Of a stretch of 64,000 nt of DNA, positions 10,551 to 58,977 are shown piece by piece. How positions within the stretch are numbered: the first letter of the stretch is position 1; each line of letters opens with the position of its first letter. A model generated the notes under the pieces. That model did no database searches and was not told where the DNA came from. It saw only the letters and a list, made by a program, of their open reading frames with translations. A program made the position numbers and the translations under genes. The stretch is from a virus. The stretch covers positions 1-64,000 of the IMG/VR virus record IMGVR_UViG_3300046167_000744; one strand, 5' to 3'.

Positions 10551-10579
10551 ATATTACAACTATATATACTCTCTAGCAA
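10551..10579 (-). promoter_or_regulatory. Leftward early promoter
   Basis: Minus strand TTGCTA (10579-10574), exactly 17 bp, TAATAT (10556-10551). It lies between the hairpin-repeat region and the gene starting at 10468. Confidence 0.6.
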
Positions 10580-10594
10580 GTTTCATTTTTTAGT

Positions 10595-10901: not shown

Positions 10902-10930
10902 TTGAAGAGCCTCGGTAGATATGATAAGAT
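10902..10930 (+). promoter_or_regulatory. Rightward promoter
   Basis: TTGAAG (10902-10907), 17-bp spacer, TAAGAT (10925-10930), placed 38 bases before the ATG at 10968 and just after the repeat array. Confidence 0.5.
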
Positions 10931-10967
10931 ACAAGTATCTTAAACCCATTAACGAAAGAAAAGCAAA

Positions 10968-12333: not shown

Positions 12334-12351
12334 GACCTACTATGTTATACT
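12323..12351 (+). promoter_or_regulatory. Sigma70-like promoter before the SF2 helicase
   Basis: TTGCAG (12323-12328), 17-bp spacer, TATACT (12346-12351), overlapping the end of the nuclease gene and 35 bases before the helicase ATG. Confidence 0.55.
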
Positions 12352-12386
12352 GTGCTTATACTTATAGACTAAGGAAAGCACGGTAA

Positions 12387-16421: not shown

Positions 16422-16444
16422 GGTGAAGTATAGGGCTGTTGATG

Positions 16445-16473
16445 TTATCATATACCCACTCAACACTTATAAT
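16445..16473 (+). promoter_or_regulatory. Sigma70-like promoter for the fibre genes
   Basis: TTATCA (16445-16450), 17-bp spacer, TATAAT (16468-16473), a consensus -10, placed 12 bases before the ATG at 16486. Confidence 0.6.
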
Positions 16474-16485
16474 TAGGAGTTCATC

Positions 16486-16812
16486 ATGGCAGATCATAAA
16501 ACCGTAGTTGTGGAGTCTGGCGGCGACACAGTATTCTTAACTAAAGCCAATCTAGGCTTCTCACCAGCTGATACGCACCGTAACTTCCAAATCTCGGTTC
16601 ATAACTTAGATGGTGGAACTTATACAGTGTCCTACTATCCCGTAAACTGCAGCCACTTGATTGAGTTTCAAGATAATGCGCCTGAGTCTGCAGCGGTAGT
16701 AGCCTCTCAAACTATCGACTTCCTATACTCAGGCTTGGTTATATCTTTCAATAACCTGGGTGCAGGAGCTGCCCCGAAGGTCCATGCAACATTCTGGCCT
16801 CGTGGTCTATAA
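16486..16812 (+). CDS. Hypothetical small structural protein (108 aa)
   Basis: Starts after TTAGGAG. The sequence is beta-rich with aromatic edges (FQISVHNLDGGTYTVSYYPV and TIDFLYSGLVISF). It lies between its own promoter and the first long fibre gene, so it is probably a small virion or fibre-associated protein. No family is recognised. Confidence 0.6.
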   Translation: MADHKTVVVESGGDTVFLTKANLGFSPADTHRNFQISVHNLDGGTYTVSYYPVNCSHLIEFQDNAPESAAVVASQTIDFLYSGLVISFNNLGAGAAPKVHATFWPRGL

Positions 16813-16823
16813 GGAGTTAAACT

Positions 16824-19800
16824 ATGGCTATTTTATCAGGTGATGACGCAACCACCAAGGAGCCAGGACTCGTCAGACTTGCTAGGGTCGATGAGACTTT
16901 AGCAGGTGTAAGTGAGTCCATTGCTACCACGCCTCTAGGTGTGGCTTCCTATGTTGCCCAACTTATAGGAGCGGCCCCTGCTGCCCTTAACACTTTACAA
17001 GAGCTAGCTGAAGCTATCCAGGGTGACGACGACTTCTACGTCCGTGTCCAAACCCTAGAGGCTACAGCTACATCACACGGCACACGCCTCACCTCTGCTG
17101 AAGGTGATATCGCAGTATTGCAAGCGGATCTCAATACCGCCGAGTCTAGCATCTCGACTTTACAGTCGGGCGTTAGCGGTAACGATACTGATATCGCTGG
17201 CATCCTAACCAGGTTGACCGCAGCCGAAGGTGATATTGACGACCTGGAAGCACATACCCATATTGATGGTGGGGGATCTAGCACAGCGCTCCAAGATGAG
17301 GTCGATGATATAGAGGCTGGTGTAGGGCTTGCAACTGACGGATCATACGCTTCACGCAGCGGCTCTAACTATATCGACTCAGCCTCATCTATCGCAGGTG
17401 AGATCGGTCTACTCGATACGCAGGTTAAGAGTAACGCAGATGCTATCTCTTCACTTCAATCAGGTGGCTCAGGTAGCTCCGCTAACCAAGACGAAGTTGA
17501 TGATATTGAATCATCAGTCGGGTTAGATGCTGACGGTAACTATGTATCCAGGTCTGGAACTAACTACCTCGATAGCGCCTCATCCATTGTAGGTGAGATC
17601 GGACTACTCGACGCTCAAGCTAAGATTAGCGCTGACGCTATAGCGAGTAACGATAGTGATATCGCATCTATACAGAGCGACGTGAGCGCAGCTCAATCAG
17701 ATATCTCAACGAACGCATCAGGTATAAGCAGTAATAGCTCTGCTATTTCTACACTTAACTCACTAGCTGATTCTCATGAGGCATCTATCGGACTCAGTTC
17801 TGCAGGGGCCTACGTCACGAGATCAGGTAGTAACTACCTCGACAGTGCATCTAGTATTGTAGGTGAGATCAGCGCTCTCGATACGCAGGTTAAGGCCAAT
17901 GCGGATTCAGCAGCAGCTAACTCTAGCGCAATCTCTTCTAACGATAGCGATATCGCTGGCATCCTAACCAGGCTGACAACAGCCGAAGGTGAGATTGACG
18001 CTCTAGAGATTGAAGCTCATGATGATACCCAAGTAGAACTCGACGCTACTCAAGCTGGAGCTGGACTCGATGCTGATGGAGGCTATACCGCCGATGCAAC
18101 TAGTAACTACTTAACCTCTGCCTCTTCACTGAAGGACGCAGACGATAAGCTAGATGCTCAGATCAAGAGTAATGCGGATAGTATCACTAGCCTTCAAAGC
18201 TCGGTATCATCTACTCAAAGCGATTTGGATACAGCTGAAAGTGCGATCACTAGTTTACAAAGCGATGTAGCTGGTAACGATAGCGATATCAGTGGCTTAG
18301 CGGCACGTATGTCAACGGCTGAAGGTGATATCACCCAGCTTGAGACTGACGTTGCAGGTAACGATAGTGATATAGCGACCAACTTGGCAGCTATACAGAG
18401 TAACGATAGTGATATCACGGCGTTGCAGGGGCGCATGTCAACAGCTGAGTCTGATATAGACACAGTAGAGTTGAGCGTTGCAGGTAAAGCTGATGGTAGC
18501 CTGGTGGATACCATTGAGGCATCTATCGGTATTAGTGCGGATGGGACCTTCTCAGCTAACTCCAGCTCTAACTACTTAGGATCTGCATCTAGTGTCCGTG
18601 GTGAGATCAACGCACTCGACACTCAAGCGAAGGCTAATGCTGACTCTATTGATGCAAACGATACGGATATCCTCGCCATACTGACCACGGTCTCAGGGCA
18701 TTCTACTTCAATCGCAGCTAACAGTAGTGCGATCAGCTCTAACGATTCAGATATCGCTACCAACGTAGCTTCCATCTCGACTCTACAGAGTGAAGTAGAT
18801 GCAGCTCAAGTCGGTGCTGGATTAGATTCTGATGGAGGCTATACAGCTGACTCATCTAGCAACTACCTCACGGCAGCCTCTTCACTGAAGGATGCTGACG
18901 ATAAGCTAGACGCTCAGATCAAGAGCCTATCTGATGATATAGACGCTATCACTTCAGGCACTAGCGGATCAGCTTCACTAGCTACCATCCAGGCCGAGGT
19001 CAATGCGACTCAGGCAGGTGCAGGTCTTGATCCCGACGGCGACTATACAGCTGACTCATCTAGTAACTACTTAGCATCAGCTACCTCCTTGCTCGATGCA
19101 GACGATAAGCTAGACGCTCAGATCAAGGTCAACGCAGACGCAATCGCTTCTAACGACTCAGATATCTCAGCTCTTCAAAGCTCTGTATCAGGTAATGATA
19201 GTGATATCAGTAGTTTACAAAGTTCTGTAGCGAGTAACTCTAGTGCGGTCTCCTCTAACGATAGTGATATCGCTAACCTCCAGGCGCTCGCCAATACGCA
19301 CGAAGCCTCTATAGGTCTAGAGGCTGACGGTTCCTTAGCTGCGTTTACGAACAAGCCTATCATCGCATCTGATACATCTATCAGAGCAGCGGTCGAAGGC
19401 ATTGTAGATTATGTAGGTGAAGCATCTATTTCAGGGACGCTATCGGCCAACCTGGTAACTGCTCAAGCAAGCATCAGCACTAACGCAACTAACATCAGTG
19501 GTAACGACTCAGATATCTCAGCGCTCCAAGCGTCAATGTCTGCAGCCGAGTCTGATATTGATGATCTTGAGACCTTAACAGTCTCTCACACATCAAGCAT
19601 CGCATCGAATGCGGCTAACATCGCATCAAACGATACTGATATAGCGGCTAACCTAGCGTCAATACAGAGTAACGACACTGATATAGCTTCTAACCTAGCG
19701 GCGATCCAGGGTAACGATAGCGATATTGCTGGACTATTGACCCGTATGAATACTGCAGAGTCAAACATAGGCTCTAATGATACGGATATATCTAACATCA

Positions 19801-20822
19801 ATACCAGCGTAGCTACTGCTGAGTCGGATATAGATGATCTTGAGACGCTGACAGCCTCTCATACATCTAGCCTCGCCTCTAACGCTAGTAGCATATCGAG
19901 TCTCTCATCTACGCAGAGTAGTCACGCTTCCACGCTCACGAGCTTGCAGAATCAGATCGACGGGAATGATAGCGATATCAGCACCAACGCAAGTAGCATC
20001 TCTTCTAATGCGAGTAACATCAGTTCAAACGATACTGATATAACTAACTTGCAATCAGAGCTAGACGCTACTCAAAGCGGAGCTGGTCTTTCTGCAGCTG
20101 GGGCCTATCAAGCTGATAGCGGAGCTAACTACATCGCTAGTGCGACTAGCCTTGCTGATGCTGATGATAAACTCGATGCTGCTATTGCAGCTAGAGCTTC
20201 AGCTATCACTGGCTTAGACACTCGACTCTCAGCTGCTGAGTCTACAGTATCAGGTCACACTTCAACCTTATCGTCTCAAGCCTCTAGTATCAGCACCATT
20301 GAGAGTGATCTTAATACAGCTGAGAGCGCTATCGCTACACTAGAGAGCGAAATGGATGCTGTCGAATCTACTAATGTATCGCAGGCATCTACCCTCACTT
20401 CGCATGGCAGCCGTTTAACGTCCTTAGAGTCTAACGACAGCACTCAAGACAGCAGCATTACTAGCCTTGGATCTCGTGTAACCACACTTGAAAACACCAC
20501 TGGTAGTAATACAGCGATCACAGCACTTCAAGGTAGAATGACTACCGCCGAAGGTGATATAGATGATCTTGAGACTCTAACCGCCTCTCACACTACCGAT
20601 ATAGCTATTGCTAATGCACGGCAAGGTGGTATTTGGCATCAGGACACTAATACGGTAGTATACAAATCCAGTGGCTTCACCGTCCGACAATCTTATGGTG
20701 CCTGGGGGTATGAACCGTCTACGAATGATTTCGTATTCATCGCACCCGAAGGCGGCCCTGGTGATCGTCACTGGAATTACGAAGGATCAACTGGTTCAAT
20801 CATTTTCACAGGAGTATCATAA
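16824..20822 (+). CDS. Long tail fibre protein with coiled-coil repeats
   Basis: 1332 aa with AAGGAG before the ATG. The N-terminus has a widespread tail-fibre attachment signature (GAAPAALNTLQELAEAI, residues about 52-68). Most of the rest is degenerate heptad-type repeats, SNDSDIAS/TLQS/TAEGDIDDLE, alternating with a GLDADGGYTADSSSNYL-like module seen about eight times. Together they should form a long trimeric fibre shaft. The last 90 residues are non-repetitive (GGIWHQDTNTVVYKSSGFTV...) and probably form the tip or a joint to the next fibre protein. Its stop overlaps the next ATG (TAATG). Ser/Asp-rich composition and direct repeats make it recombination-prone. Confidence 0.85.
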   Translation: MAILSGDDATTKEPGLVRLARVDETLAGVSESIATTPLGVASYVAQLIGAAPAALNTLQELAEAIQGDDDFYVRVQTLEATATSHGTRLTSAEGDIAVLQADLNTAESSISTLQSGVSGNDTDIAGILTRLTAAEGDIDDLEAHTHIDGGGSSTALQDEVDDIEAGVGLATDGSYASRSGSNYIDSASSIAGEIGLLDTQVKSNADAISSLQSGGSGSSANQDEVDDIESSVGLDADGNYVSRSGTNYLDSASSIVGEIGLLDAQAKISADAIASNDSDIASIQSDVSAAQSDISTNASGISSNSSAISTLNSLADSHEASIGLSSAGAYVTRSGSNYLDSASSIVGEISALDTQVKANADSAAANSSAISSNDSDIAGILTRLTTAEGEIDALEIEAHDDTQVELDATQAGAGLDADGGYTADATSNYLTSASSLKDADDKLDAQIKSNADSITSLQSSVSSTQSDLDTAESAITSLQSDVAGNDSDISGLAARMSTAEGDITQLETDVAGNDSDIATNLAAIQSNDSDITALQGRMSTAESDIDTVELSVAGKADGSLVDTIEASIGISADGTFSANSSSNYLGSASSVRGEINALDTQAKANADSIDANDTDILAILTTVSGHSTSIAANSSAISSNDSDIATNVASISTLQSEVDAAQVGAGLDSDGGYTADSSSNYLTAASSLKDADDKLDAQIKSLSDDIDAITSGTSGSASLATIQAEVNATQAGAGLDPDGDYTADSSSNYLASATSLLDADDKLDAQIKVNADAIASNDSDISALQSSVSGNDSDISSLQSSVASNSSAVSSNDSDIANLQALANTHEASIGLEADGSLAAFTNKPIIASDTSIRAAVEGIVDYVGEASISGTLSANLVTAQASISTNATNISGNDSDISALQASMSAAESDIDDLETLTVSHTSSIASNAANIASNDTDIAANLASIQSNDTDIASNLAAIQGNDSDIAGLLTRMNTAESNIGSNDTDISNINTSVATAESDIDDLETLTASHTSSLASNASSISSLSSTQSSHASTLTSLQNQIDGNDSDISTNASSISSNASNISSNDTDITNLQSELDATQSGAGLSAAGAYQADSGANYIASATSLADADDKLDAAIAARASAITGLDTRLSAAESTVSGHTSTLSSQASSISTIESDLNTAESAIATLESEMDAVESTNVSQASTLTSHGSRLTSLESNDSTQDSSITSLGSRVTTLENTTGSNTAITALQGRMTTAEGDIDDLETLTASHTTDIAIANARQGGIWHQDTNTVVYKSSGFTVRQSYGAWGYEPSTNDFVFIAPEGGPGDRHWNYEGSTGSIIFTGVS

Positions 20823-23800
20823 TGGCTTCAGTCAGACCCGAATCCAATAACACCCACACTCTAGGAACGTCTACTTATAAGTGGGCCACCCTACATAGTG
20901 TGGATGTTCAGGCCGCTACCATCACAACATCAGGCGATGTTGAAATCGGTGGCAATCTTACCGTCAGCGGAACTCAAACCGTTCTTGACGTAACCACCGT
21001 AAGTGTTGAAGATCCATTGCTTCAGCTCGCTAAATCCAACTCAGCTGACAGCGTTGATATCGGCTTCTATGGTCAAATCGTTGACGGGTCTACTACTGAG
21101 TATGTTGGACTCTACCGAGATGCTAGTGATGGTAAGTTTAAGTTATTTGAGAGCGCTTCAGCAGCACCTACCTCTACCGTAAGCGGTGGATCTACCGCCA
21201 CTCTCGTGGCTAACGTAGAAGGTGCCGTCACTGGTAACGCCGACACTGCAACCTCTGCAGCAGCTCTTACAACTGCACGAACTCTCAGCATCAGCGGCGA
21301 CGCATCAGGCTCTGTATCCTTCGATGGATCAGCTGATGCAGATATCGCTATCACTGTAGGTTCTGGAGCTATTGAAAACTCAATGCTCGACAATAGCTCA
21401 ATCACCTTTACCGACGGATCTAACTCAGAGGCTCTTGCACTCGGTGCGACTCTTGAGATCGGCGGAACCTCTGGTGAAGTTGAAGTAGCCTACTCATCGG
21501 CAGCTAATAAGTTTACCGTAGGGCTTCCTGACGATGTTAATATCGCAGGCGACCTCGTAGTATCTGGTATTATCTCAGGAACCGTTCAAGCTAACTCAAG
21601 CACAGCTACTAAGTTAGCTACTGCCCGTAACATCGCACTTGGTGGTGATCTTGCAGGCTCTGCTAGTTTTGATGGGTCTGCTGACGTGAGCATCACGGCT
21701 ACCATCCAGGCAGGTAGTGTCGATAACGCTATGCTCGCTAACGATGGAATTAGCCTCAAGCTAGCTGGTGTTGCTCAAGAAGATATTAACCTCGGTGATG
21801 ATCTTAACTTCGCAGGGCACTAGCAACGAAGTAGAGATCGCCTATGATGCATCTACTAACTCACTTACTTTCGGACTACCTAGTAGCATTACTGCTGCGC
21901 TCGTAGGGAATGCTTCAACAGCATCCGCTTGGGCTAACGCTAGAACAATCTCACTTGGTGGGGATCTTGGCGGATCAGTAAGCATTGACGGATCAGCAGA
22001 TGCGACTCTCACTGCGACTATCCAAGCTGGCTCTGTAGAAAACTCAATGCTGGACAACAGCAGCCTCACTGTTAGCGATGGATCTAATACATCAGCGGTC
22101 GCTCTTGGTGGCACGTTAACTATCGCTGGAACTGCAAATGAGGTTGCGGTAGCTCACTCTTCAGGCGTGACTACCATCGGCCTTCCAAGTAGCATCAGTG
22201 GTCTTACTGCTGTATCTGCTGACGATTTTGTAGGCGACCTCACGGGTAAGGCTGATACAGCTGACGCTCTTGCGACTGCACGGACCCTAAGTATCTCTGG
22301 TGATGCTACAGGATCTGCTAGCTTCGATGGATCTGCAAACGCAGCTATCGCCCTAACCATTGCGGCTGGAGCGGTAGATAACGCTATGCTCGCAAATGAT
22401 GGGATCGGCCTTAAGCTCGCAGGCGTAGCTCAAGAAGACATCAATCTTGGTGATGATCTTAACTTCGCTGGAACAGCTAGTGAAGTCGATATCGCATACG
22501 CATCAGGTAGTAACACGCTTACATTCAGCCTCCCTTCAACTATCAACGCAGCGACTACCGCAAACGCAGCTACATCATCAGCATGGGCCAGCGCTCGCAC
22601 CGTATCTCTCGGTGGTGACCTCGGTGGATCAGTAAGTATTGATGGATCAGCGGATGCGACTCTCAACGCTACTATTCAAAGCAGCTCTGTAGAAAACAGT
22701 ATGCTCGCTAACTCAGGGATCACCATCCAGGACGACAACGCTCAAGCAGCCTCAGTCGCTCTCGGTGGATCTCTTCGATTCAGTGAGGTAGCTAACGAGA
22801 CTACAGTCAACTTCGATTCGTCTGCTGGCTCTATCACTATCGGACTTCCTGATAACATTACAGCTGACGTAACAGGTAATGCTGACTCTGCATCGGCTCT
22901 TGAGACTGCACGAACCATCGCACTTAGCGGTGACGTAACAGGCACAGGCTCTTTCGATGGATCAGCTAACCTCACAATAGCAACTACTTTAGCAGGTGGC
23001 ACGGCGCTCACCTTCGCTGACGGTGACTCAAACTCTGAAGCTCTAGCTTTGGGATCGACTATCACCTTTGAAGGCACTAGTAATGAAGTTGATGTTGCGT
23101 ATGGAGCAGGCTCCAATACATTCACTATTGGACTACCTGATACTATCGCTGCGGAACTCACAGGTAATGCATCTACTGCAACTGCCCTGGCTACAGCTCG
23201 CACCATTGCTCTTAGTGGCGATGTTACAGGTTCGGGTTCGTTTGATGGTAGTGGCAACCTCACCATCGCTTCTACTTTGGCTGGTGGCACTGCTCTTACC
23301 TTTACTGATGGATCTAACTCAGAGGCTCTGGCTCTCGGTTCGACTCTTGAAGTCGGAGGCACCGCTAACGAGGTAGAGGTCGCATACAGCACAGCGGCTA
23401 ATAAGTTTACAGTTGGTCTTCCTGATGATGTAAACATCGCAGGTGATCTCGTAGTCTCTGGAACTATTTCAGGAACCGTAGCGGCTAACTCAAGCACTGC
23501 TACTAAACTAGCTACAGCTCGCACCATCTCACTCGCTGGTGACCTTGGAGGCTCAGTGAGCTTCGATGGATCAGCTGATGTTAGCCTCACTAGCACGATC
23601 CAGGCAGGTAGCGTTGATAACTCAATGCTAGCTAATGATCATATCGGCCTTAAGCTCGGTGGTGTAGCTCAAGAGGATATCGCACTCGGTGATGATCTCG
23701 ACTTTGTTGCAGGTCAGGACCTAGACGTAGCTTATAACGCTAGCACTAACGCTCTTACATTCAGCCTTGAGTCTGAGATTGATAGTGATACTACTGGTAA

Positions 23801-25517
23801 CGCAGCAACCGCTTCCGCACTTGAGACCGCACGAACTCTCAGCATCACTGGTGACGCTACAGGTTCAGCTAGTTTCGATGGGTCAGCTAATGCGGCTATC
23901 GCATTGACCATCGCTGCAGGTGCTGTAGACAACGCCATGTTAGCTAATGATGGAATCAGCTTGAAGCTCGGCGGTGTTGCTCAAGAAGATATCAACCTCG
24001 GTGATGATCTTAACTTTGCAGGGACCGCTAGTGAAGTGGAGATCGCTTATGCTTCTGGAAGTAACACTCTTACTTTCGGACTCCCTGATACTATCGCTGC
24101 AGAGCTTACAGGTAACTCAAGCACTGCTACTAAACTAGCTACAGCTAGAGCTATCTCAGTGAGTGGAGACGCTTCAGGAACCGTTAACTTCGATGGGTCA
24201 GCTGACGCAGATATCGCATTGACTATCGCTTCGGGCGCTGTCGATAACGCTATGCTTGCTAACGATGGATTTAGCCTTCTCGTGGATAGCGTGAGCCAAG
24301 AGGATATCAACCTCGGTGACTCACTCAACTTCATCAGTGGTCAAGATATTGATATCGCTTACAACACTACATCTAACCAACTCAGTATTGCTCTTGAAGG
24401 CACTATTGATAGCGATACTACTGGTAACGCAGCGACTGCTTCAGCATGGGCAAACTCACGCACAATCAGTCTAGGCGGTGACCTTGGAGGCTCAGTTGCT
24501 CTTAACGGATCTGCTGATGCAACTCTCACGGCTACTATCCAGTCTAACTCAGTAGAAAACAGCATGCTGGCTAACAGTGGCGTAACACTAGCAGCTGACT
24601 CAGGTTCAAACGATCCTATAGCTCTTGGTGAGACACTCACTATCTCAGGAACCTCTAACGAGATCGAGACTGCTGCCGCTGGTAGTAATCAGATCACTAT
24701 CGGACTTCCTAATAACGTCACTATCGGTAATAACCTCACCGTAACCAACGACTTAGCGGTATCTTCAGGTGATCTTGAGATTACTGACGGGACACTCTCT
24801 ATCCTCGGTGGTGGAGCTACTATCAACGGAACCGTAGCGATCAACGGAACGCATACCATCAACGGTAGCCTTATCGCTAACTCTGCAACTATGAAGTTTG
24901 AAGACAGCCTCCTTGAGCTAGGTTACACTAACTCAAGCGTTGTCGATCACGGTTTCTTCAGCAAGCATAGCGACGGCGATTACGTCGGTGTAGCTTATGA
25001 TCAGTCAGCTGCTGAGTTTGCGATGTTCAAGACAGGCACCAAGCCTGGAGCGACAGTAGACACTGGTGCTGGTGATTATGAGCTTGCTGATATGCGAGCG
25101 AAGAACATTGCTGCTAACGGTAGCTTGCTCGTGAGCGGTTCCGTTATCAACAACTCTTCAAAGGGTATGTTCGAGAAGCTCAGCTTCGCCTCTGTTACTG
25201 GAGCTAACACCACTCTATCAGGCTCTCAGATGGTCGGTGGTGTGATTCTTCGTGATGCGAGCAACGATGAGACTGATGCAACCGCTACAGCGGCTCAGAT
25301 CGTAGCTGCGATGCCTAGCTCTGCTAGACTTGCAGATATGACTTTCGTGATGCGCTTCATCGTCTCAGGAACTAGCGCTGGATATAGCTTCACAGCTGGA
25401 TCTGGTGTGACTATTGTTGGAGGGTCTTCTTACATGACAGACAAGACTCACTCGTATCTCGTGCGTGTTACTAACGCTACGGGATCTAGTGAAGCGGTCA
25501 CCATGTATAAGCTCTAA
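20822..25517 (+). CDS. Long tail fibre protein with beta repeats, one frameshift
   Basis: About 1565 aa once a single base is removed from the GGG at 21815-21817; as read, the frame breaks after NLGDDLNFAG. Many copies of a roughly 100-residue unit recur, including the ATARTLSISGDASGSVSFDG type, AMLANDGISLKLAGVAQEDI and a TASEVEIAYASGSNTLTFGL strand. Such repeats are typical of phage long tail fibres. The end (VVDHGFFSKHSDGDYVGVAY and a variable-looking C-terminus) likely forms the distal part. The frameshift site is one of many near-identical repeats, so the intact reading is easily inferred. It is coupled to the preceding fibre gene. Confidence 0.82.
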
Positions 25518-25534
25518 GATGATAACCAGGTAGC

Positions 25535-25660
25535 TATGGTGTTATACTACTTAAATCATACAGGCTGGTGGCAGCATTATTGAAGATGCACAGTCAGCCC
25601 TACCGAACTCCGTGTATTGATACTTCGTAGCTGGGGGTGATACTCTTAGTCTTTTAAACC
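25535..25660 (+). other. Intergenic segment with possible structured transcript
   Basis: There are 167 bases between the fibre stop and the next gene. TATACT near 25542 could be a -10 element, though no good -35 is seen. Downstream, GGCTGGTGGCAGC and CAGTCAGCC could pair, and a T-run follows near 25651. No tRNA-like T-arm is present and no ORF is supported. Confidence 0.25.
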
Positions 25661-25684
25661 CACGCTAGATAGTTAGGATTTATT

Positions 25685-26005
25685 ATGGATAAGATTATCG
25701 CCATTGTTACCAGGCATAAGGTGCAGTTGAAATGGACTGTTGTCGGAGTCCTGGCCGTCCTTATCGCCTACTACTCTGTAGAGGCTCTCATGGGCCTCGT
25801 AGCTATTCTATTCGGCAGCCAGGTGCATACGTCGAAGAAACAGCAAGCTGAGCATAGAGAGCGCATTAAAGACGTTGTAGAGCAACAACAGGAAGCTCAA
25901 GAAGATCTAGAGGCTATCCGTAAATCTCAAGTAGAGGCTGTAACTAAAGCAAAAGCTAAGGCAGCCTCAAGAGTTGACGACTTTATTGACGGAGATTGGC
26001 CATGA
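25685..26005 (+). CDS. Membrane protein with coiled-coil tail (spanin-like candidate)
   Basis: 106 aa. There is a short cytoplasmic start, then a hydrophobic region of one long or two short helices (WTVVGVLAVLIAYYSVEALMGLVAILFG), then a charged coiled coil (QQAEHRERIKDVVEQQQEAQEDLEAI) ending DDFIDGDWP. This topology suits an i-spanin or holin-accessory protein. It overlaps the next gene by ATGA. The function is inferred from topology only. Confidence 0.6.
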   Translation: MDKIIAIVTRHKVQLKWTVVGVLAVLIAYYSVEALMGLVAILFGSQVHTSKKQQAEHRERIKDVVEQQQEAQEDLEAIRKSQVEAVTKAKAKAASRVDDFIDGDWP

Positions 26006-26418
26006 TCAAAGCTATACTCCTATCGCTACCTATCATCTTCTCTACCTCAGTAGGTCTATGGATCAATACTGACGGGTCCGAGAAGATGGTGCCTTGCCCT
26101 GAGTCTTTTGATACGGACCGCCTACGATTACCTCAAGGCTGCTCAGCCTACGAACCAGGTGTATGGTTAAGCGTGGATCGTTATCGAGAGATGGATATCG
26201 AGTTGCAGACTTTAGAGACTCAGCTCGCCGCCAAGGATGAGGAGATCAAGCATCTTGAGGCTAGAACTAATCAGCTTCAAGGACAACTTATCCTCTGCAC
26301 CGCAGTTCCTGAGTGTCCTGCGTGTCCAGACAACTTTCTCAAATACACCGCCACAGGCGCTGCTCTAGGCTCTGTTATTTCACTGGGAGGATGCGCCGCA
26401 TGGAATCTATCACAATAA
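26002..26418 (+). CDS. Exported/membrane protein with coiled coil
   Basis: 138 aa from ATG 26002, chosen because GGAG lies 7 bases upstream and it overlaps the previous stop; a TTG at 25996 is less likely. The N-terminus is signal-like (IKAILLSLPIIFSTSVGLWI). Four or more Cys residues (MVPCPESF, PQGCSAY, LCTAVPECPACPDN) surround a central coiled coil (LQTLETQLAAKDEEIKHLEA), with a C-terminal hydrophobic GAALGSVISLGGCAA. It could be an outer-membrane or periplasmic lysis partner of the preceding protein. No lipobox is clearly placed at the N-terminus. Confidence 0.55.
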   Translation: MIKAILLSLPIIFSTSVGLWINTDGSEKMVPCPESFDTDRLRLPQGCSAYEPGVWLSVDRYREMDIELQTLETQLAAKDEEIKHLEARTNQLQGQLILCTAVPECPACPDNFLKYTATGAALGSVISLGGCAAWNLSQ

Positions 26419-26672
26419 ACGCATTAGCTGGAGGGGCCGCTATCATAGGCTTCCTCTATACCTACATTAAGGACCGTTACGAAAACGGTAAGATCATAGG
26501 TAAGCTAGAAGAGCGTGTAGCTAATCTCGAAAGAGGTAATGAAATACTTGATCAACTCACGAATACGCTCACTGAGACTCGTTTGGCAGTTGCTAGGTTG
26601 GAGCAAAAAGTGGATAGTATCTCTACTTGGGTGCAGCAACAGCAGCAGCAAACACCATTACGCAGAGAATAG
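26400..26672 (+). CDS. Single-TM coiled-coil protein (90 aa)
   Basis: The start at 26400 (MESITINALAGG) sits 9 bases after GGGAGG. It has one membrane helix (INALAGGAAIIGFLYTYI), then a coiled coil (LEERVANLERGNEILDQL...LEQKVDSI) and a Gln run. It overlaps the end of the preceding gene in another frame. It is the third consecutive small membrane/coiled-coil gene; together they look like a lysis or envelope-interaction cluster. Confidence 0.55.
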   Translation: MESITINALAGGAAIIGFLYTYIKDRYENGKIIGKLEERVANLERGNEILDQLTNTLTETRLAVARLEQKVDSISTWVQQQQQQTPLRRE

Positions 26673-26682
26673 GAGCGGATAT

Positions 26683-27378
26683 ATGGATTCGTCAGTTGAC
26701 TTATATAATGATGGTATTGGAATCGTCACTCTCATTGATTACATGGGAGATGATAAACGAGCGCTACATGCGGCTCGTGTCTCTTTCTTAAGAGACGAAG
26801 ATCTATTAGTAGACGACGGTGAGCGTCTCGATCCTAAAGATAAGAAGTTAGCTAAGTTCTTATTGAAGCATCAGCACACCTCACCATTTGAGCATAGCTC
26901 ACTTAGTTTTAGAATTAAGGTGCCTCTATTCATTCGTAGCCAAATAATGCGTCACCGCACGTTCAGCTATAATGAGGTGAGTCGCAGGTATACAGATTCG
27001 TGTATCGAGTTCCATATACCTAAAGAGCTACGCAAACAGTCTGAGAAGAATCTACAATGCAGCGTAGATGAGGTTGTGTTTAATAATGATAAGCTGGTTA
27101 AGGCTATGCGTAACCAGGCTGATTCTGCATTTAAAACCTATCAGATGTTTCTCGACTGTGGAGTATGCAGAGAGCAGGCTCGTGCAGTCCTACCTCAGAA
27201 TATGTATACGACTTTCTATATGACAGGTAACCTCCTCAACTGGATCAAGTTTTTGAAGTTACGGTTAGACGAACACGCTCAGCCAGAGGTGCAGGAGCTG
27301 GGAGTAGCTATTCTATCTATGATGGAAGAGGTATTCCCTGACACTGTAGCTATCTTGAAGGAGCTAGATATACTATGA
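26683..27378 (+). CDS. thyX: Flavin-dependent thymidylate synthase
   Basis: 231 aa from ATG 26683 with AGGAG 7 bases upstream. It contains the ThyX signature RHRTFSYNEVSRRY (residues about 91-104), matching RHRxxSxNExSxRY. SPFEHSSLSFRIK and the C-terminal NLLNWIKFLKLRLDEHAQPE helix are also family features. It converts dUMP to dTMP using methylene-THF, FAD and NADPH. The stop overlaps the start of the dCMP deaminase gene, pairing consecutive steps of dTMP supply for phage replication. Confidence 0.93.
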   Translation: MDSSVDLYNDGIGIVTLIDYMGDDKRALHAARVSFLRDEDLLVDDGERLDPKDKKLAKFLLKHQHTSPFEHSSLSFRIKVPLFIRSQIMRHRTFSYNEVSRRYTDSCIEFHIPKELRKQSEKNLQCSVDEVVFNNDKLVKAMRNQADSAFKTYQMFLDCGVCREQARAVLPQNMYTTFYMTGNLLNWIKFLKLRLDEHAQPEVQELGVAILSMMEEVFPDTVAILKELDIL

Positions 27379-27920
27379 AGATCAAGCACTTAGCTCATCG
27401 CATCAAGACCTGCTTATCACTAGCCTCCCTTTCACCCTGTAAGCGGCGGCAGTTCGGCTGCGTGGTTATAGACCCTATCGCTAATATTATACTTAGTGAG
27501 GGATATAACGGCAGCCTTCGTGGATCGACTCAGTTATGCGGTGGATCTAAGTGTGATCGAGAGGGGTTGAAGCCAGGCACTACTTATGAGGTAGGCTGTG
27601 TCCATGCCGAGCAGAACGCTGTATATAATGCAGCTCGTATCGGTAACTCGCTAGTAGGTTCCTGGTTTATCATAAATGGTGAGCCTTGCAGCTTATGCGC
27701 TAAAGCAATCGTTCAGGTAGGTGCTACAAAGGTTATTTGTGTATCGGGAGTGTTCGGACAACTAGACGGCGTTGAGATACTTCAAGACGCTGGAGTAGAG
27801 GTTGTTTTAGTAGAGCCTGATATGAGTGGTCTAGAGCTAGCTCTGCATCAGCCTATGCGATTACCTCGTGTCCGTGAGCAGAAAATACCTAGCAGTCCCT
27901 TTTCTAAGCAGACTACCTAA
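27375..27920 (+). CDS. dCMP deaminase
   Basis: 181 aa, ATGA overlap with thyX. The zinc-dependent cytidine/deoxycytidylate deaminase motif is complete: HAEQNAVYNA near residue 77 and GEPCSLCAKAI near residue 105. A Cys/His-rich insertion (LCGGSKCDREG) is typical of dCMP deaminases. It makes dUMP from dCMP, feeding ThyX. The last 30 residues are basic and probably disordered. Confidence 0.88.
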   Translation: MKIKHLAHRIKTCLSLASLSPCKRRQFGCVVIDPIANIILSEGYNGSLRGSTQLCGGSKCDREGLKPGTTYEVGCVHAEQNAVYNAARIGNSLVGSWFIINGEPCSLCAKAIVQVGATKVICVSGVFGQLDGVEILQDAGVEVVLVEPDMSGLELALHQPMRLPRVREQKIPSSPFSKQTT

Positions 27921-27978
27921 ACTACTGAGGTTATGGTAGTATACAACTACACCCTATATATCTTAACGAGGCTTTAAC

Positions 27979-29412
27979 ATGAACATTTTTGAACGTATAA
28001 GCGGCTACTTCGGTAAGTCGGTTACTATGGATTCCGCCGAAGAGCTAATCAAGGCACTACCGCCACCAACAGGTCCCATACCAGAGGCTAACGCTGTTCA
28101 GATAAACCCTGTAGACGTAGCTAACGCCTTCATGTTGGAAGATAGCGTTGCAGGGGCCGAGTCGCATAGAGGTCTAGATTACGATCAGTTGCGAGCTATG
28201 TCAGCGGTGCCTATGATAGCCTCTATCATTCAGACCAGGATCAATCAGATCGCTGAGTTTGCTAAACCCTCTCAGGACGGTGCTGATATAGGCTTTCAGG
28301 TTCGACTAAAAGATCGAAGCGAGGTTCCTACTGAGGCGGATCTTGATACTATCCAGGACTTCTATACCTTTATGTTATCGTGCGGTGACAACCGTATAGA
28401 TTATGAGAGCAGCTTCGAGGCTTTCTTGCGTATGCTGATACGGGATAGCCTTATGTTTGACCAGGCCTGCTTTGAAGTTATTAGAAGTAGGAACGGTCAA
28501 GTATCAGGATTTATGAATGTAGACAGCGGCACGATCCGTAGATCTAGAATGTCTGAGGCTGAGAAGAAGACTGGTAAACGTGATCCCGAAGGCACTCACT
28601 TTGTCCAGGTAGTCGGTAATAAGGTCCGAGCTGAGTTTGGAGCGAAGGATTTATGCTTCGGTATACGTAGGCCTAGATCAGAGCTTAAGTATCGAGGATA
28701 CGGCTTTCCTGAGCTGCAAGAATGTATAGGTATTCTCACTAACCTACTTAACGCTGAAGTTTACAACGCTAGTAACTTTACGAATGGTATATCTGTATCG
28801 GGTATAGTCGCAGTTAAGACTAAGATGAATCCGCAGCTGTTCAGAGCCTTCCGTAGAGAGTTCTACTCTATGCTTAGCGGTAGCCATAACTCTAAACGCA
28901 CTCCATTGATACAACTCGATCCCGATAGCAACGAAGACCTCAAGGCTCTTAATCTATCTCAGAGTAACGCTGAGATGGAGTTTGAAAAATGGATGAACTA
29001 TAACATTAAGCAGCTCTGCGCTATCTTCCAGATTGACCCGATGGAAGTCGGTTTTAACTTTGGTGAGACAGGTAAGACCCATAGCTTAAATCAACAAGAT
29101 CCTAGCGCTAAGGTATTGATGAGTAAAGAGAAGGGACTACGGCCTTTATTAAGAGCTGTCGAGTCCTGGATTAATAAATACATCATTACCGAGTTAGATG
29201 ATCGCTTTGAGTTGATATTTACAGGGATGGATATCACTCCACCTGAGCGCCAGCTTGAGATGGACGTGAAGAAAGTGGCTGCATTTATGACCGTAAATGA
29301 GCTGCGAGCCATGTATGATATGGAGCCTCTACCTGGAGGTGATATTATTCTTAACCAGGTCGCCGCTGTCACAATGCCAGGTGCGGCACCTACCTGTAGT
29401 GGAGGAGCCTAA
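27979..29412 (+). CDS. Portal protein
   Basis: 477 aa. It follows the HK97-type portal pattern: an N-terminal basic segment, a stem-and-wing region (AVPMIASIIQTRINQIAEF), the conserved DSGTIRR stretch near residue 185, GYGFPELQECIGIL, and a C-terminal region with QLCAIFQIDPMEVGFNFGETG and LLRAVESWINKYI. It forms the dodecameric DNA gate that docks terminase and neck proteins. It is separated from terL by about 11.5 kb of fibre and nucleotide-metabolism genes, an unusual arrangement. Confidence 0.88.
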   Translation: MNIFERISGYFGKSVTMDSAEELIKALPPPTGPIPEANAVQINPVDVANAFMLEDSVAGAESHRGLDYDQLRAMSAVPMIASIIQTRINQIAEFAKPSQDGADIGFQVRLKDRSEVPTEADLDTIQDFYTFMLSCGDNRIDYESSFEAFLRMLIRDSLMFDQACFEVIRSRNGQVSGFMNVDSGTIRRSRMSEAEKKTGKRDPEGTHFVQVVGNKVRAEFGAKDLCFGIRRPRSELKYRGYGFPELQECIGILTNLLNAEVYNASNFTNGISVSGIVAVKTKMNPQLFRAFRREFYSMLSGSHNSKRTPLIQLDPDSNEDLKALNLSQSNAEMEFEKWMNYNIKQLCAIFQIDPMEVGFNFGETGKTHSLNQQDPSAKVLMSKEKGLRPLLRAVESWINKYIITELDDRFELIFTGMDITPPERQLEMDVKKVAAFMTVNELRAMYDMEPLPGGDIILNQVAAVTMPGAAPTCSGGA

Positions 29413-29414
29413 AG

Positions 29415-30871
29415 ATGCCTAATCAATCAAAGACATTTAATGTGCCACAGGCTGTCCGTGATGCTGCCGAGCGTGGCTTAGAACTGCGTCGTAAACACGG
29501 TCGAGGCTGGTCTTGATGCTAAGCAAGCTAAGAAAGAAGGAGTAGGCTCTGGTGTTCCAGCGAGCCTCTAATCTTATGCAAGGCACCGTCTCTTACAAAA
29601 CTGTTAAGCGTATGTTAGCCTTCTTCAATAGACATAAGGCGTTTAAAGAGCATCATAGCGATAAGACGAGTGCTGCTTGGATCTCACATATGCTATGGGG
29701 CGGCAATCCAGGTTATGCGTGGGCTAAACGCATTGTGAAGCAGGAGGAGAAAGTCGAGAAGGGTAGCTTCCTAGCTGCTCACTACTTCGGTGACGACTTC
29801 CCTGATGAGGAGCTTGAGGAGGAGGCTCAGCCTATCGGTGGTTTTGCGGAGTTACTTAAAGCCGCTCGCAGACCTAAAGACTTTATGGATATCGAGGGCA
29901 GGAAACGTATTAAAGCTAAAGCTGGTGACGAGACTGATGTTGTCGCTAGTGATGTAAAGCCTGTCGATGCTCCTAAAGACGCTATACCTGCTGAAGACGA
30001 GCCGCCTAGTAGTAAAGAACTCGATGAGGCCCTTAAGGAGTTCGGTGAGGAATCTGACGACGAGGTAGAGAAGGGTGTAGTGGTTATAGATCTAGTCGGT
30101 GACGACGATGAGCTACCTGATACAGAGCCAGCGGCCCCTGTGCCTCCACCTCAAGTTCCTATGCCTATACCTCCTGAGCCGATGCTCCAAGAGATAGACT
30201 TCGTGCCTGACGTGATCGTGACTCCCTATGATCAAGTTAAGATGAAGAAGATAGCTAAGAAAGGCCGAGCTATCTATGGCGTTGACAGGGTAGCTAAGAA
30301 GCAGGGACTCTATATATGTAGAGGTCAGTGGGACAATGTTGACCTAGATCTAGTTCAGGGCTATCTATCATTTATAGATGAGCCTGGTATGAAGAAGAAT
30401 GCGCTCGCTGTAGGTGGCGAAGCCATGCTCGCTGTGATTGAAAAGGCTGAGCCTAAAGTCCCTGCTAAATATTTAGAGGGATTGACAGGGCAGGAGCGTC
30501 AGAAGCGTAAGCGTGAGATACAGCGTCGGATGAAGGATAAGCAGAGCTATAAAGAGCTGCCAGGTGATAAGGACGCTAAAACTAAACCTAGTAAGTATAC
30601 CCGTAGTAGCTTCGCAGCTAAGGTTCGTGAAGAGATTAAGAAGCCTGGTAAAGATGAGTTCTTACGGGCGGCAGCTAAAGTGAGTGGTATAAGCAAGACG
30701 ATACTAGAGGAGTGTTATGATCGTGGCTTGAAGGCTTGGTCGTCAGGAGGTCACCGACCAGGGGCCTCACCTGCTGCGTGGGCTAGAGCTAGAGTCTACT
30801 CCCTGGCTACAGGAGGCAAGACACGAAGCACCGCTGATAAAGACTTATGGGAGAGACATAAGAGAGGCTAG
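29415..30871 (+). CDS. DUF5824/DUF6321-like protein after the portal, frameshifted near the start
   Basis: About 485 aa if repaired. ATG 29415 starts MPNQSKTFNVPQAV...RRKHGRG. The frame is then broken twice within 50 bases, and removing one base at TT 29513-29514 and one at CC 29557-29558 makes it continuous. The N-terminus and the LMQGTVSYKTVKRMLAFFNR segment belong to a module often found next to phage portal/protease genes. The C-terminus (YDRGLKAWSSGGHRPGASPA, ARARVYSLATGGKTRSTADK) resembles DUF5824. The centre is acidic and Pro-rich. It is probably a head-assembly or maturation-associated protein. Hairpin repeat array B begins directly after the stop. Confidence 0.7.
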
Positions 30872-30873: not shown

Positions 30874-31045
30874 CGACTAGTGAGCTATCCACTAGTGTTC
30901 TAACTTAAAGCTAGTGGAGCTAGTGGGCTATCCACTAGTGTTCTAACCTAAAGTTAGTGGAGCTACTGGACTATCCACTAGTGTTCTAACATGGGAATTG
31001 CTAGTGGAGCTACTGGACTATCCACTAGTGTCACTAGTAACTTTG
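30874..31045 (-). repeat. Tandem hairpin repeat array B (four units, inverted relative to A)
   Basis: Four units of the form GCTAGTGGAGCTACTGGAC / TATCCACTAGTGTTCTAAC begin immediately after the stop at 30871. This is the reverse complement of the array A unit. Arms CTAGTGGA and TCCACTAG are retained in three of four. The last unit ends GTGTCACTAG rather than GTGTTCTAAC, the same variant seen in array A. The placement right behind a long plus-strand operon could make them RNA-level hairpins. Confidence 0.85.
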
Positions 31046-31081
31046 GCATTCTAGTGGCAGGGTCTAACCTTATGATATAGT

Positions 31082-31312
31082 TAGCCTATTCGGGCAGAAT
31101 GCCAAAGTTACCCGAAAACTAAGGATGCCCTGGAGTATATATATATTCTACCCTATTTATATTTATACATACTTATATATATATGTTTCTCTGGAACTCT
31201 TTAAAAATAGGTAACTTTGGCATTTTGGTCTTTTTCCGTATACATATCACAGGCTTAAGCCCTGCCACCTGTCTGCCACTTGCCAAGAAGATTCGTGGTT
31301 AGAACACATTTG
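31082..31312. promoter_or_regulatory. Composite control module, copy B (AT-rich core with paired GGTAACTTTGGCA sites)
   Basis: Inverted sites flank an AT-rich tract: AATGCCAAAGTTACC at 31087-31101 and GGTAACTTTGGCATT near 31210-31224, with TATATATATATT and TATATATATATG between them. A TGCCA cluster (CTGCCACCTGTCTGCCACTT) follows, then the 27 bases identical to copy A (31281-31307), ending in a degenerate repeat unit. No ORF is supported. The order of elements matches copies A and C. Confidence 0.65.
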
Positions 31313-31404: not shown

Positions 31405-32154
31405 ATGAAGAAGTTCCTGACGCTTCCTTTTATTAACATCACTACGAGCAGCAAGGCTTGGATCACGTTAGCCGACCTAGCTACATATCTAGAAATAGGT
31501 GAGCAGTCACTGAGGCGCAGGATACTATATTCAGACTCGGCCCCGTTCAGAACTATACGCCCTAAAACCAATGAGCTTATAAAAGCTGCCAGGCGCAGTT
31601 CCTTTACGGGCAGACCTAACCGACAATACTTTGATTTAGATTTTGCTCTGGCGGCCTGTTTCAGTATGAGTCACGAACCAGCTCGCAAGATGCGTGATCA
31701 AGTCGTGTATATAATGAACAACCTGTTTTACGACGGGTTCGTCTCTACTAAGAACTACCATTTAAGTATTGAGGTGCGTAGAGCTATAACAGCCTACGTC
31801 TGCGGTGTGGATCATTATTATAAGATCATTGAGGCTCGATGGGACCCGACAGACCAGTGCCACGGCACGACGCTAGCCCCTCTTGAAGTATCCGTTGAGA
31901 AGCTCGTTATCCCAGACTATTACCTGGAACGTGCCGAGATAAGTAAGGTTAAGGCTATAGATTTAGCGATCCACTTGATATTAACGCATTGTTATGTAGA
32001 AGATAAAGGTTCGGCTTTAGTAGACTTACTTGGTATAATAGGTATCACTGTAGACGCTGGTGTCTGCGGAGCTGAACAAACCTCTAACATAACGGAATGG
32101 GTTAAGGAGCGTTACAACGCTTCCTCCTCTACGATTGGAGATTTAAATGTCTAA
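31405..32154 (+). CDS. Possible HTH regulator (249 aa)
   Basis: AGGAGG ribosome site. Residues about 20-42 (ITLADLATYLEIGEQSLRRR) look like a helix-turn-helix, followed by QYFDLDFALAACFSMSHEPA and a helix resembling the region after the DNA-binding part of phage KilA-N/Rha-type regulators. The C-terminal half (VEKLVIPDYYLERAEI...) is unrecognised. It is the first gene after control module B and its stop overlaps the protease start by 8 bases, so it is co-expressed with head genes. A role as regulator, perhaps of the repeat modules, is inference. Confidence 0.5.
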   Translation: MKKFLTLPFINITTSSKAWITLADLATYLEIGEQSLRRRILYSDSAPFRTIRPKTNELIKAARRSSFTGRPNRQYFDLDFALAACFSMSHEPARKMRDQVVYIMNNLFYDGFVSTKNYHLSIEVRRAITAYVCGVDHYYKIIEARWDPTDQCHGTTLAPLEVSVEKLVIPDYYLERAEISKVKAIDLAIHLILTHCYVEDKGSALVDLLGIIGITVDAGVCGAEQTSNITEWVKERYNASSSTIGDLNV

Positions 32155-41509: not shown

Positions 41510-44155
41510 GTTTGGTGGTATAAGCACAATATCGGCCCCCATAGCCATACCTAGACCTGGATCTGCACCCATAGGTGGCAATCCATCTTTAATGGCTGAT
41601 GCGTATCAGCGTCAGGGAGTGCCTTTAAACATGGCATCTACCGCTGGAGCTAGTGGCTTCAGACCTGTTGATATGGCCAGCTCTATTGATGATGCGACAA
41701 CTCAGGGTAGCATGTCACCGCTTCACGCTGCTCAAATGCTCGCACAGACAGGGACTATCACTGCACCTCAGTTCAACACGCCTCAGATGCGAAGGCCTTC
41801 TGAAATGCTTGCACAGGCAGGTGTTTATGGCCACCCTCTTTTCCAGCAGCGAGCTGTAGACCAAATAGCAGCGGAGCCTGCTCAGTTCGGAGCTAAAATA
41901 GCCGCTGTAGACGACCCTGCTAGACAGAGGCAGATGATAGGTCGAGAGGTGCTATCGGCTAATTATAATGAGCAGTTTTATTCTAACTACGGTGTAGGTA
42001 ATCCAAATCAACACATAGCAGCACCTGTTGCTTCCGCTATGTATCATGATGAGTTTAACGACGGCATATTACAGGATATGAATCAGCACTTTGGCAGCTA
42101 TTCATCGGTAGCTGGTCCAAATCAGGGATTGTTTGAGGGAGGCTCAGGACTCAATAGGCTAGAGCCTACAACGGGTTCTTTACTAGACGTGACAGCCGCT
42201 CAGGCTCTGCGACGAGCTAATAAAGAGGCACACCGCAAAGGCGGCGAGCTAGATCCAAGTATTGGGTTTGACCAAGCTCGTCTAGCAGTAGCCTCTGCTG
42301 CCACGAAAAGCAGGTGTTGATCCTTTAATACTTAACAACCAAATAGCGGTAGGTTCTGGATCAGCTAAAACACCTTTAACGAGAGCTGAGATGGAGGCTT
42401 ATGGAGCTTCCCTCGACTACGCCGCACCTGTTCTATCCAACTCTAATGCTCATACTATAGATATAGCGGCTGGATAGGCAGGGTGTATCTGTAGACGCTG
42501 ATGGTAATGTATCCACGGTTGGGTTTGGAACTACCGCTGGAGATAAAAGCAGGAGCAGCGCTGCTGCTGATCAGTCACTTGAGAAGAACACAGCTGCTCT
42601 CAATAAAGTAGCAGAAGCTCTAACCAGGTTCAGTGGCGGCGGTGGTGGCGGCTCGTTACTACTAGAAGGTCCAGGTTCCACAGGTGGTGGAGGCGGTGGA
42701 GGTGGTGGCGGCGGTCCTGTCGCTCAGCCTGGTCAGCCTCTAGGGCCTATACAGCCTGGTTTCGCACCTCCTGGATCTAGTCCGTTCCGAAGGGGTATGG
42801 GCATAGCAGGAGGTCTTATATCAGGTATGTTCGGGGGTCAAGCTACTGATACGGACACCAGAGGAAGGCGTATAGCTAAAGGTATAGGTAGAGCTATACC
42901 TGTCCTAGCTAGAGGTGCAGGGGCCGCCCTGAGAGGTAGAATAGGAGGTGACCTAGCGTCAACACTAGGTTCAGTTCCAGGCTTCAGCCGTGGCTTTGAG
43001 GGTATTGGTACATTCGGAGGGTTTGCGGAGATGGGCGCTAGTGGTGAGCTGCCTGCACTTCAAGCATCCGAGGCTTTAGGGCTAAGTGGATCATCAGGCA
43101 ACTTCCTAACCCAGCAAATGGGAGGCGCTATTGGAGCTGGAGCTGATTTCGGGATATCAGCAGAGCAGATGGGTAGCCTTATGCTACCTCTGGCTCAGAG
43201 TGCTGGTGGTGGCATGAATGTAGGTGATGTCACTAGCTTCACGAGAGCCTTCGCAGGCGGTGAAGATGTAGGTGGTGTAGCCTCTCTTATAGGTCAGCAG
43301 CGTCAAGCTGGATTCAGAGGCAATAGAGCAGCTGAGTTTAACGCAGCTAAAGGACAGGGGCTAAGGGGATCGGCGGCTACTGGTTTCGCATCTAACCTGT
43401 TTGGTGCGTTCAGAGGTGTGTCTGCTGGATCAGGTATTCAGATGGACAGGCTGAAGACAGAGGGACGCATCTTAGGTATGGGAGGCGGTGATATTGAAGA
43501 AGGCTCAGCTCGCTTCCAGCGAGGCATGGGTGTCCATAGAGGAGCTGTCAATCAACTATTCTCAGGATTCCAAGGAGTGTCAGATACGTTGCTTATGGCC
43601 GACGCTATGGGCAGAGCTGACGGTGACTTCTTGCAGGCTCAAAAGCTACTAGAGAGAGATCAAGCTCAAGGTGGAGCTATGGCTCAAAGAAGACTCATGG
43701 GTATGGGTATGGATAGACGCACCGCCCGAACCTTACTTGGGGGCCAACTAACATCTCAGGATCAACGAATGATGGGACGTAATGAGGCTGTCGCAGGTGG
43801 TGACGAGTTTAACTTCAACGAAGCTACTGGTGGTAACGCTACCTTCATTAGCGGAGCTTTAGCTGGTCGTCGTAATGAGCAACTAGGCACGGTCTACTCT
43901 GAGAGAGGCCGCTCCACGTTCCAAGAGATACAGAGGCAAGAGAAGCGAGTAGAGAATGATCTGGTGAAGGGCCTATATGATAATATAGATGAGCTAGGAA
44001 CCTTGACGGGAGCGGTTTTGACCCTTAACAAAACTATAGACGCTTTAGTGAAGCAAGCTCAGAAGCCTGTTAAGGCAGTAGCAGGTAGCAGCATCGGCAT
44101 AGTGCCTGCAATGGGACTATACAACTGGACGCTTAGTCAGTTCGGCATTGAATAA
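41469..44155 (+). CDS. Tape measure-type protein, frameshifted twice
   Basis: About 895 aa if repaired, in three frames. The first part runs 41469 to about 42308 and the middle part to about 42472. The last part is Gly-rich (SGGGGGGSLLLEGPGS and MGIAGGLISGMFGG onward) and ends at 44155. Removing one A from AAAA 42306-42309 and one G from GG 42472-42473 joins them. The N-terminus is Gln/Ala/Met-rich and the rest has a Gly/Ala-rich, hydrophobic character (AIPVLARGAGAALRGRIGG) as in tape-measure proteins. Gene order after the chaperones supports this. AAGGAG lies 10 bases before the ATG. Confidence 0.6.
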
Positions 44156-58973: not shown

Positions 58974-58977
58974 TAAG

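Follow-up and report, generated by a model that had tools for sequence, protein, structure and literature searches.

Facing pairs of a phage-specific word around AT-rich cores at the gene-block starts of an uncultured tailed phage: a candidate site for a phage-encoded DNA-binding protein

Introduction

What is the function of two facing copies of a short word, placed around an AT-rich core just upstream of a phage gene block? The question arises at positions 31,082 to 31,312 of a 64,000-nucleotide stretch of viral DNA (the window), which covers bases 1-64000 of a 74,372-base virus record in IMG/VR (IMGVR_UViG_3300046167_000744). The original prediction, made from the letters alone, took the locus for a dedicated operator of a phage protein and considered several TTTGGCA copies to be possible −35 boxes as well. 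A literature search found nothing in print on this element, which is thin evidence. From the sequence pattern described below, the best reading is that the element is a dedicated site for a phage-encoded DNA-binding protein. The pattern points to a phage-private protein of this kind that would control, or possibly copy, the phage genome.

Results

Genome and gene blocks

The two ends of the record overlap: window positions 1-1262 match record positions 73113-74372 (1260 bases) at 98.7% identity, with slight variation between the ends. Given this 1262-bp overlap, the genome is probably nearly complete at ~73.1 kb (73,110 bp). Judged by its gene content, the source is an unclassified tailed phage, a myovirus, with genes for a major head protein, tail sheath, portal, large terminase, and baseplate, together with DNA polymerase A fragments, a VapE-like helicase, Amidase_2, and ribonucleotide reductase. 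Its capsid (MCP) and terminase (TerL) proteins matched those of named phages at <60% identity in all cases; among named phages, no relatives were found by DNA search and none by the 44168-46339 protein, and a search of the genome contigs collection for TerL relatives found none. The tyrosine integrase profile PF00589 had no match in the phage, with a positive control that rang in 14 of 14 genomes; thus, a phage that integrates by means of a tyrosine integrase is less likely. The single-subunit RNA polymerase profile PF00940 had no match in the phage's own record, but its control was equally silent, so that this negative does not point to absence.

A greedy ORF map divides the genome into five strand-consistent gene blocks. 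All five start at one of four sites, here called cassettes C1 to C4, with C1 serving two blocks. The block limits are based on ORF calls, not transcripts, and small opposite-strand ORFs within blocks were taken as spurious.

10468 through the contig join to 66868, leftward: gene block 1
10968-30871, rightward: gene block 2
31405-56577, rightward: gene block 3
56954-61329, rightward: gene block 4
65868-61330, leftward: gene block 5

The cassette gaps at the block starts measure 499, 533, 376, and 999 bp and are the four main noncoding gaps of the genome; the value of 376 bp, for C3, holds if two small ORFs of 50 and 77 amino acids that the greedy caller placed across it are disregarded. Another long gap, at 42321-42796 (476 bp, in the structural block), resembles frameshifted coding sequence, not a regulatory region. 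Long ORFs in 16824-25517, including two of 1332 and 1249 amino acids, contain many internal repeats of up to 300 bp and perhaps encode tail fibers, and a short ORF at 56152-56577 matches phage nucleotide-kinase profiles over its first ~78 residues only.

One word in four facing pairs

The 11-mer TAACTTTGGCA occurs in six exact copies in the 73,110 bp, compared to a mean of 0.03 and a maximum of 1 in 60 shuffles, and all six fall in the operon-start gaps. With up to one mismatch, nine copies were found versus 0.72 in shuffles (maximum, 5); eight of these are inside the four cassettes, and the ninth, at 55262, is within a gene. A chance-level frequency is thereby refuted for the exact word, whereas at up to two mismatches the window is not enriched (17 found versus 14.3 expected). 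The shorter TTTGGCA was found 13 times, with 4.6 expected, and none of 100 shuffles had as many.

Near matches included, the word makes four facing pairs, at 10480/10594 (C1), 31100/31212 (C2), 56729/56840 (C3), and 66498/66613 (C4). All four have the same facing geometry and a similar spacing, each around an AT-rich core of ~100 bp. The parts of the cassettes are as follows.

10480-10490, minus strand: C1 left word TAACTTTGGCA, ~12 bp upstream of the start codon of the minus-strand ORF 9917-10468
10491-10593: C1 AT-rich core, 68% AT, with TATGTT (left) and TATACT (right), each 23 bp from the word
10594-10604, plus strand: C1 right word TAAGTTTGGCA, one mismatch
10644-10668: C1 outer TGCCA cluster
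10680-10883: CTAGTGG/CCACTAG repeats right of C1
30867-31036: CTAGTGG/CCACTAG repeats left of C2, ~43-bp period
31038-31048, plus strand: extra exact word of C2, in the outer TGCCA cluster of its left arm
31098-31112, minus strand: C2 left word AATGCCAAAGTTACC, reading outward as GGTAACTTTGGCATT
31113-31209: C2 AT-rich core, 74% AT (0.15% of genome windows are as AT-rich), with outward-facing TATRYT-like hexamers 23 bp (left) and 24 bp (right) from the words
31210-31224, plus strand: C2 right word GGTAACTTTGGCATT
31262-31286: C2 outer cluster of TGCCA repeats, in the sense opposite to the inner word
56574-56652: CTAGTGG/CCACTAG repeats left of C3
56665-56688: C3 outer TGCCA cluster (TGGCA on the plus strand)
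56729-56739, minus strand: C3 left word TAACTTTGGCA
56740-56839: C3 AT-rich core, 72% AT, with TATGTT (left) and TATGTA (right) at 23 bp
56840-56850, plus strand: C3 right word CAAGTTTGGCA, two mismatches
56902-56937 of the window and 66300-66720 of the record: further stretches of CTAGTGG/CCACTAG repeats
66498/66613: C4 facing pair, beyond the 64,000-nucleotide window

The facing pair that raised the question is real. Its left word had been placed at 31087 but lies at 31098-31112, and the two C2 words enclose 97 bp, not ~110, with the two AT runs present as TATATATATAT. None of 100 dinucleotide shuffles of the gap matched this 15-bp pair. The related sites named at the same time also exist, with small coordinate shifts; they are the C1 and C3 words and the extra word of C2 in the list above.

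Of 16 regions examined singly, four had a clearly significant inverted pair (no more than 1 shuffle in 100); C4 reached 4/100, and 11 failed. This weak single-region significance is due in part to the two copies often differing by one to three bases. An unbiased 7-mer concentration test mainly picked CTAG repeats, not the word. In seven of 16 regions, 0 of 150 random windows scored as high in this test; L098, L106, L012, and C3 did not stand out, and no score was possible for L013 and L113, which have two copies only.

Anatomy of the cassettes

Read outward, an arm consists of an alternating TA run ending in TATRYT, 22 to 24 bp, the word, at least ~40 bp, a TGCCA cluster, and CTAGTGG/CCACTAG repeats. 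The TGCCA cluster, opposite in sense to the word, is clear in C1R, C2R, C3L, and C4L and partial or absent elsewhere. The repeats (~43 bp) flank all four cassettes, and CTAG density is 22 per kb in the gaps versus 5 per kb elsewhere. Relatives with other words also carry similar CACTAG/CACTAA repeats; thus, the CTAG repeats seem to be a second, less phage-specific motif.

The distance between hexamer and word was tabulated for 13 arms (eight of the present genome, G000; two of L014; one of L010; and two of L016), omitting L019, L015, whose word is ambiguous, and the left arm of L010. TATRYT stands exactly 23 bp from the word in 10 of them and at 22 and 24 bp in two, while C3R has TATGTA at 23. 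By way of background, 0.44% of positions drawn at random from the genome, and 1.7% of cassette-gap positions, have a TATRYT at 22 to 24 bp. The left arm of L010 has no TATRYT at 22 to 24 bp, and the hexamer spacing was not seen at the chosen anchor in the right arms of L098 and L100.

The G000 cores, at 68 to 74% AT, belong to the top 0.7% of windows, and in 10 of the 14 regions examined the core ranks with the most AT-rich segments (<1% of windows as AT-rich). G004 and L106 have paired words without an AT-run core (56 to 57% AT; 2 to 9% of windows as AT-rich). The inner words can be read as direct repeats of ~8 bp, namely, GGTAACTT TGGCATTT TGGTCTTT on the right of C2 and GGTCAAAT GGTCAAAC in L010. 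Moreover, the C2-left and C4-right arms have ~60 bp in common, and C1 and C3 have a common stretch of 120 bp at 88%.

Just upstream of the first gene of the rightward operon is a near-perfect palindrome, TAAGATACAAGTATCTTA at 10920-10945 of the window and TTAAGATATAAATATCTTAA at ~3817-3842 of L010. It is also found at 1-25 of L011 and is conserved although the cassette word differs.

Concerted change of the word between relatives

IMG/VR relatives were collected by means of capsid and terminase proteins and profiles. L014, a close relative, keeps both word and layout at the same locus, before its 31405-like gene. In more distant relatives the layout persists with a different word. L010 and L016 are parts of a single contig (record G001) and carry GGTCAAATGGT-type words at the C1 and C2 positions. 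L013 and L113 are two parts of another contig (G004), whose 51,538 bp contain exactly four copies of its word CCCTRCCCTCCC, arranged in two facing pairs that adjoin gene starts at the C1 and C2 positions; this word was absent from the five other relative records in which it was sought. A third word family is common to L019, L098, and L100, and other words are found in L104 and L106.

By this comparison, the word is uniform within a genome and different between related phages in the three genomes that have both C1 and C2. The best local match between C1 and C2 of the same genome scored 54.9 (G000), 22.8 (L010/L016), and 17.3 (L013/L113), versus shuffle maxima of 10.7, 10.5, and 11.5, respectively (12 shuffles each). 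The six cross-genome C1/C2 pairs among these genomes scored 7.3 to 12.7, and the top score of 12.7 came from a CTAG-type stretch and exceeded its shuffle maximum of 10.7. Such concerted change across loci suggests one phage-encoded binding protein per phage.

L017, L095, L096, L102, and L105 also have a 31405-like gene and were left out of the word comparison; in L095 and L096, neither a gap nor a cassette precedes this gene. A scan of viral contigs for the pattern of hexamer, spacer, and word returned 72 stretches. Among the 71 besides L014, none had a facing partner at up to one mismatch and two (L155 and L184) had one at two mismatches; protein matches in the scan stretches were to RNR-like genes only, in five loci. 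A scan for relatives with the VapE profile gave no new close ones.

Candidate binding proteins

Two genes encode proteins that may bind the word.

31405-32154, plus strand: 249-amino-acid protein, first gene after C2, conserved in 13 relatives; candidate word-binding regulator
6646-9789, minus strand: VapE-like primase/helicase (PF05272; E = 5e-30); candidate word-binding initiator if the cassettes are origins

The model of the 31405 protein (pLDDT 78) gave weak N-terminal fold matches to Bro-N/KilA-N/antirepressor proteins, of which the best (E = 0.01) was an unnamed protein. Against the PDB, DdrC was matched with a Z of 7.2, which is within the range that the tool warns about, and the sequence had no match to Pfam Bro-N (PF02498). 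The putative recognition helix of the 31405 protein differs among phages whose words differ, and it is identical in L098 and L100, which have a common word; this covariation is only suggestive of a link to word binding. The 57879 protein, which the original prediction named beside the 31405 protein, is likewise a possible candidate, with an RHH match below threshold (E = 0.07). The C-terminal region of the VapE-like helicase is modeled as a winged helix (pLDDT ~85 to 92), and Foldseek returned weak matches of this region to winged-helix proteins (best E = 0.04).

A paired promoter-operator as the favored reading

We favor, with a probability of roughly 0.5, the view that the cassettes are symmetric promoter-operator modules around core promoters, which would set the transcription of the gene blocks. 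The AT-rich core of ~100 bp would hold promoters with outward TATRYT hexamers, which would place the word at about +17 to +27, within the first turns to be transcribed. A phage-encoded protein with one specificity per phage would bind the two inner arrays and probably also the outer TGCCA clusters, and by bridging or roadblocking, the bound protein would govern how all five blocks are transcribed. From this arrangement we infer three things: the core acts as a promoter, the word is bound by a phage protein, and the effect is on transcription. The promoter is most strongly indicated at C1. There, and in the C1 equivalents of L010, L019, and L013, the left word immediately precedes the first leftward gene's ribosome-binding region; thus, the promoter of that gene must be inside the core or beyond it. 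Together with the fixed hexamer spacing, this position favors outward promoters and a paired operator.

The operator proposed in the original prediction gains further from an exact word far above chance (6 versus 0.03 expected), from its place in four facing pairs in the gaps at the starts of the five blocks of a near-complete genome, and from its being kept in L014 and swapped in concert elsewhere. Nonetheless, several observations fit it poorly. Sigma-70-like matches in the gaps are near shuffle level, one word before every block gives no early/late distinction by itself, the single-region test failed in 11 of 16 regions, and the 31405-like gene of L095 and L096 does without a cassette. Furthermore, the left arm of L010 and the right arms of L098 and L100 depart from the TATRYT spacing, and C2, C3, and C4 each have an arm that would fire antisense. 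A simple promoter needs no such arm, and yet the full module is kept; this retention of both arms suits an origin or a bridging operator.

Alternative readings

The rival that comes closest, possible though it ranks behind the operator, is that the cassettes are dispersed iteron replication origins, four per genome, which may double as promoters; the two readings are not exclusive. The words would be iteron sets flanking an AT-rich melting region, at which the winged helix of the VapE-like protein would tentatively be pictured as binding in two opposed hexamers. What makes the rivalry close is the VapE-like helicase encoded in the window, with its predicted C-terminal winged helix. Two word sets around an AT-rich region are indeed seen in G000, L014, L010, and L016 and, more weakly, in L100, G004, and L106, and the direct-repeat reading of the inner words, the very AT-rich cores in 10 of 14 regions, and the retention of both arms even where one is antisense all agree with an origin. 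However, the four copies lie at gene-block starts near start codons and away from the helicase gene, and the place directly 3′ of that gene, where an origin of the type found in phage-inducible chromosomal islands (PICIs) would be, is occupied by the gene at 6081-6617. The paired words of G004 and L106 have no AT-run core, and synonymous-site GC skew does not change sign at C2 or C3. In addition, the winged-helix region of the helicase is 58 to 62% identical between G000 and L010, about as its surroundings, despite their different words.

A combined reading, which we regard as speculative, would make the cassettes four self-specific, near-identical iteron modules that serve the five blocks as bidirectional promoters and replication origins at once, with one private specificity that would gate transcription as well as replication genome-wide and be re-coded as a set between relatives. 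In that case, the specificity could possibly be that of the VapE-like helicase's own winged helix.

It is improbable that the cassettes are duplicated, nonfunctional repeats spread by recombination between intergenic regions. The ~60 bp common to C2-left and C4-right and the 120 bp at 88% common to C1 and C3 would be expected from such spread, but words and spacing persist where the intervening DNA has diverged (L014; L010 and L016), and both loci of G004, and likewise both loci of G001, have changed their word in concert.

We give slightly less credence still to an RNA element, in which the word would act in a 5′ leader through structure, antitermination, or translational control and pair with the outer TGCCA cluster. 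The word is in the sense strand of the likely leader, and within an arm the inner repeats complement the outer ones. Against this, seven arms folded as RNA gave z-scores of −1.1 to +1.0, none of them unusual, five loci had no Rfam match, and an RNA would have no need of two-sided facing symmetry. RNA leader structure and known RNA families were rejected on these fold z-scores and Rfam negatives.

The proposal that TTTGGCA copies are −35 boxes of ordinary sigma-70 promoters can be set aside as very improbable: TTGGCA does resemble TTGACA, but sigma-70-like pairs (a hexamer 16 to 18 bp upstream of a −10) were near shuffle level (1 versus 1.3, 4 versus 1.4, 2 versus 1.0, and 3 versus 2.0 in the four gaps and 2 versus 1.4 in L014), only one of them (C3, 56845) used the TTGGCA of the word as its −35, and the left word of C1, which abuts the ribosome-binding region ~12 bp from the start codon, cannot be the −35 of that gene.

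Discussion

The concerted re-coding between close relatives is a natural experiment in which a DNA-binding specificity and all of its sites would have changed together. The site set is small, with four symmetric pairs in a near-complete genome, so that full testing is possible. If the module also starts replication, the control of transcription and replication in a tailed phage would be tied to one private word, and uncultured phages of this kind could be sorted into compatibility groups by their paired words.

Several known systems resemble the cassettes in part. The oriS and oriL origins of herpes simplex virus have inverted initiator boxes around an AT core, occur in several copies, and lie in divergent promoter regions; the likeness is one of layout only, an analogy with an unrelated virus. 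PICI origins, as described in PMC6092414, have two iteron sets flanking an AT-rich region, and the Rep helicases of Staphylococcus aureus pathogenicity islands (SaPIs) are described as recognizing their iterons through the C-terminal domain (PMC7581432). The cassettes share with these the two sets around an AT-rich region. In the islands, the C-terminal domain of the primase-helicase binds double-stranded DNA (PMC6092414, PMC7581432), and the VapE-like primase-helicase of the phage has a predicted winged helix at its C terminus. In contrast, the PICI origin is described as a single copy just 3′ of rep (PMC6092414), whereas here four cassettes stand at gene-block starts near start codons.

The SPBRE of the temperate prophage SPbeta is a repeated 15-bp intergenic element at promoters, bound by MrpR; it was first found in silico and later shown to be the master-repressor site (PMC10516654). 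It resembles the present word as a repeated intergenic element at promoters, but its description there includes no paired array around an AT core. Cluster A mycobacteriophages (L5, Bxb1, and Trixie) have up to ~30 stoperators per genome, described as mostly not promoter associated and predominantly in one orientation relative to transcription (PMC6550527). As reported for these, short sites are dispersed in one genome, and the consensus differs between relatives, in stoperators in step with the repressor. The word likewise exceeds chance at intergenic regulatory positions (eight of nine copies at up to one mismatch) and is phage specific. Unlike stoperators, it does not keep to one orientation but forms four symmetric pairs whose members face each other across an AT-rich core, at gene-block starts only, in a phage in which no tyrosine integrase match was found. 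Both systems, as presented in PMC6550527 and PMC10516654, indicate that phage-specific words of this dispersed kind serve as genuine regulator sites, whether they lie at promoters or elsewhere. Judged from its sequence, the element described here differs from both in its symmetric pairing, in its small, complete set, and, as far as tested, in belonging to a phage that lacks a tyrosine integrase.
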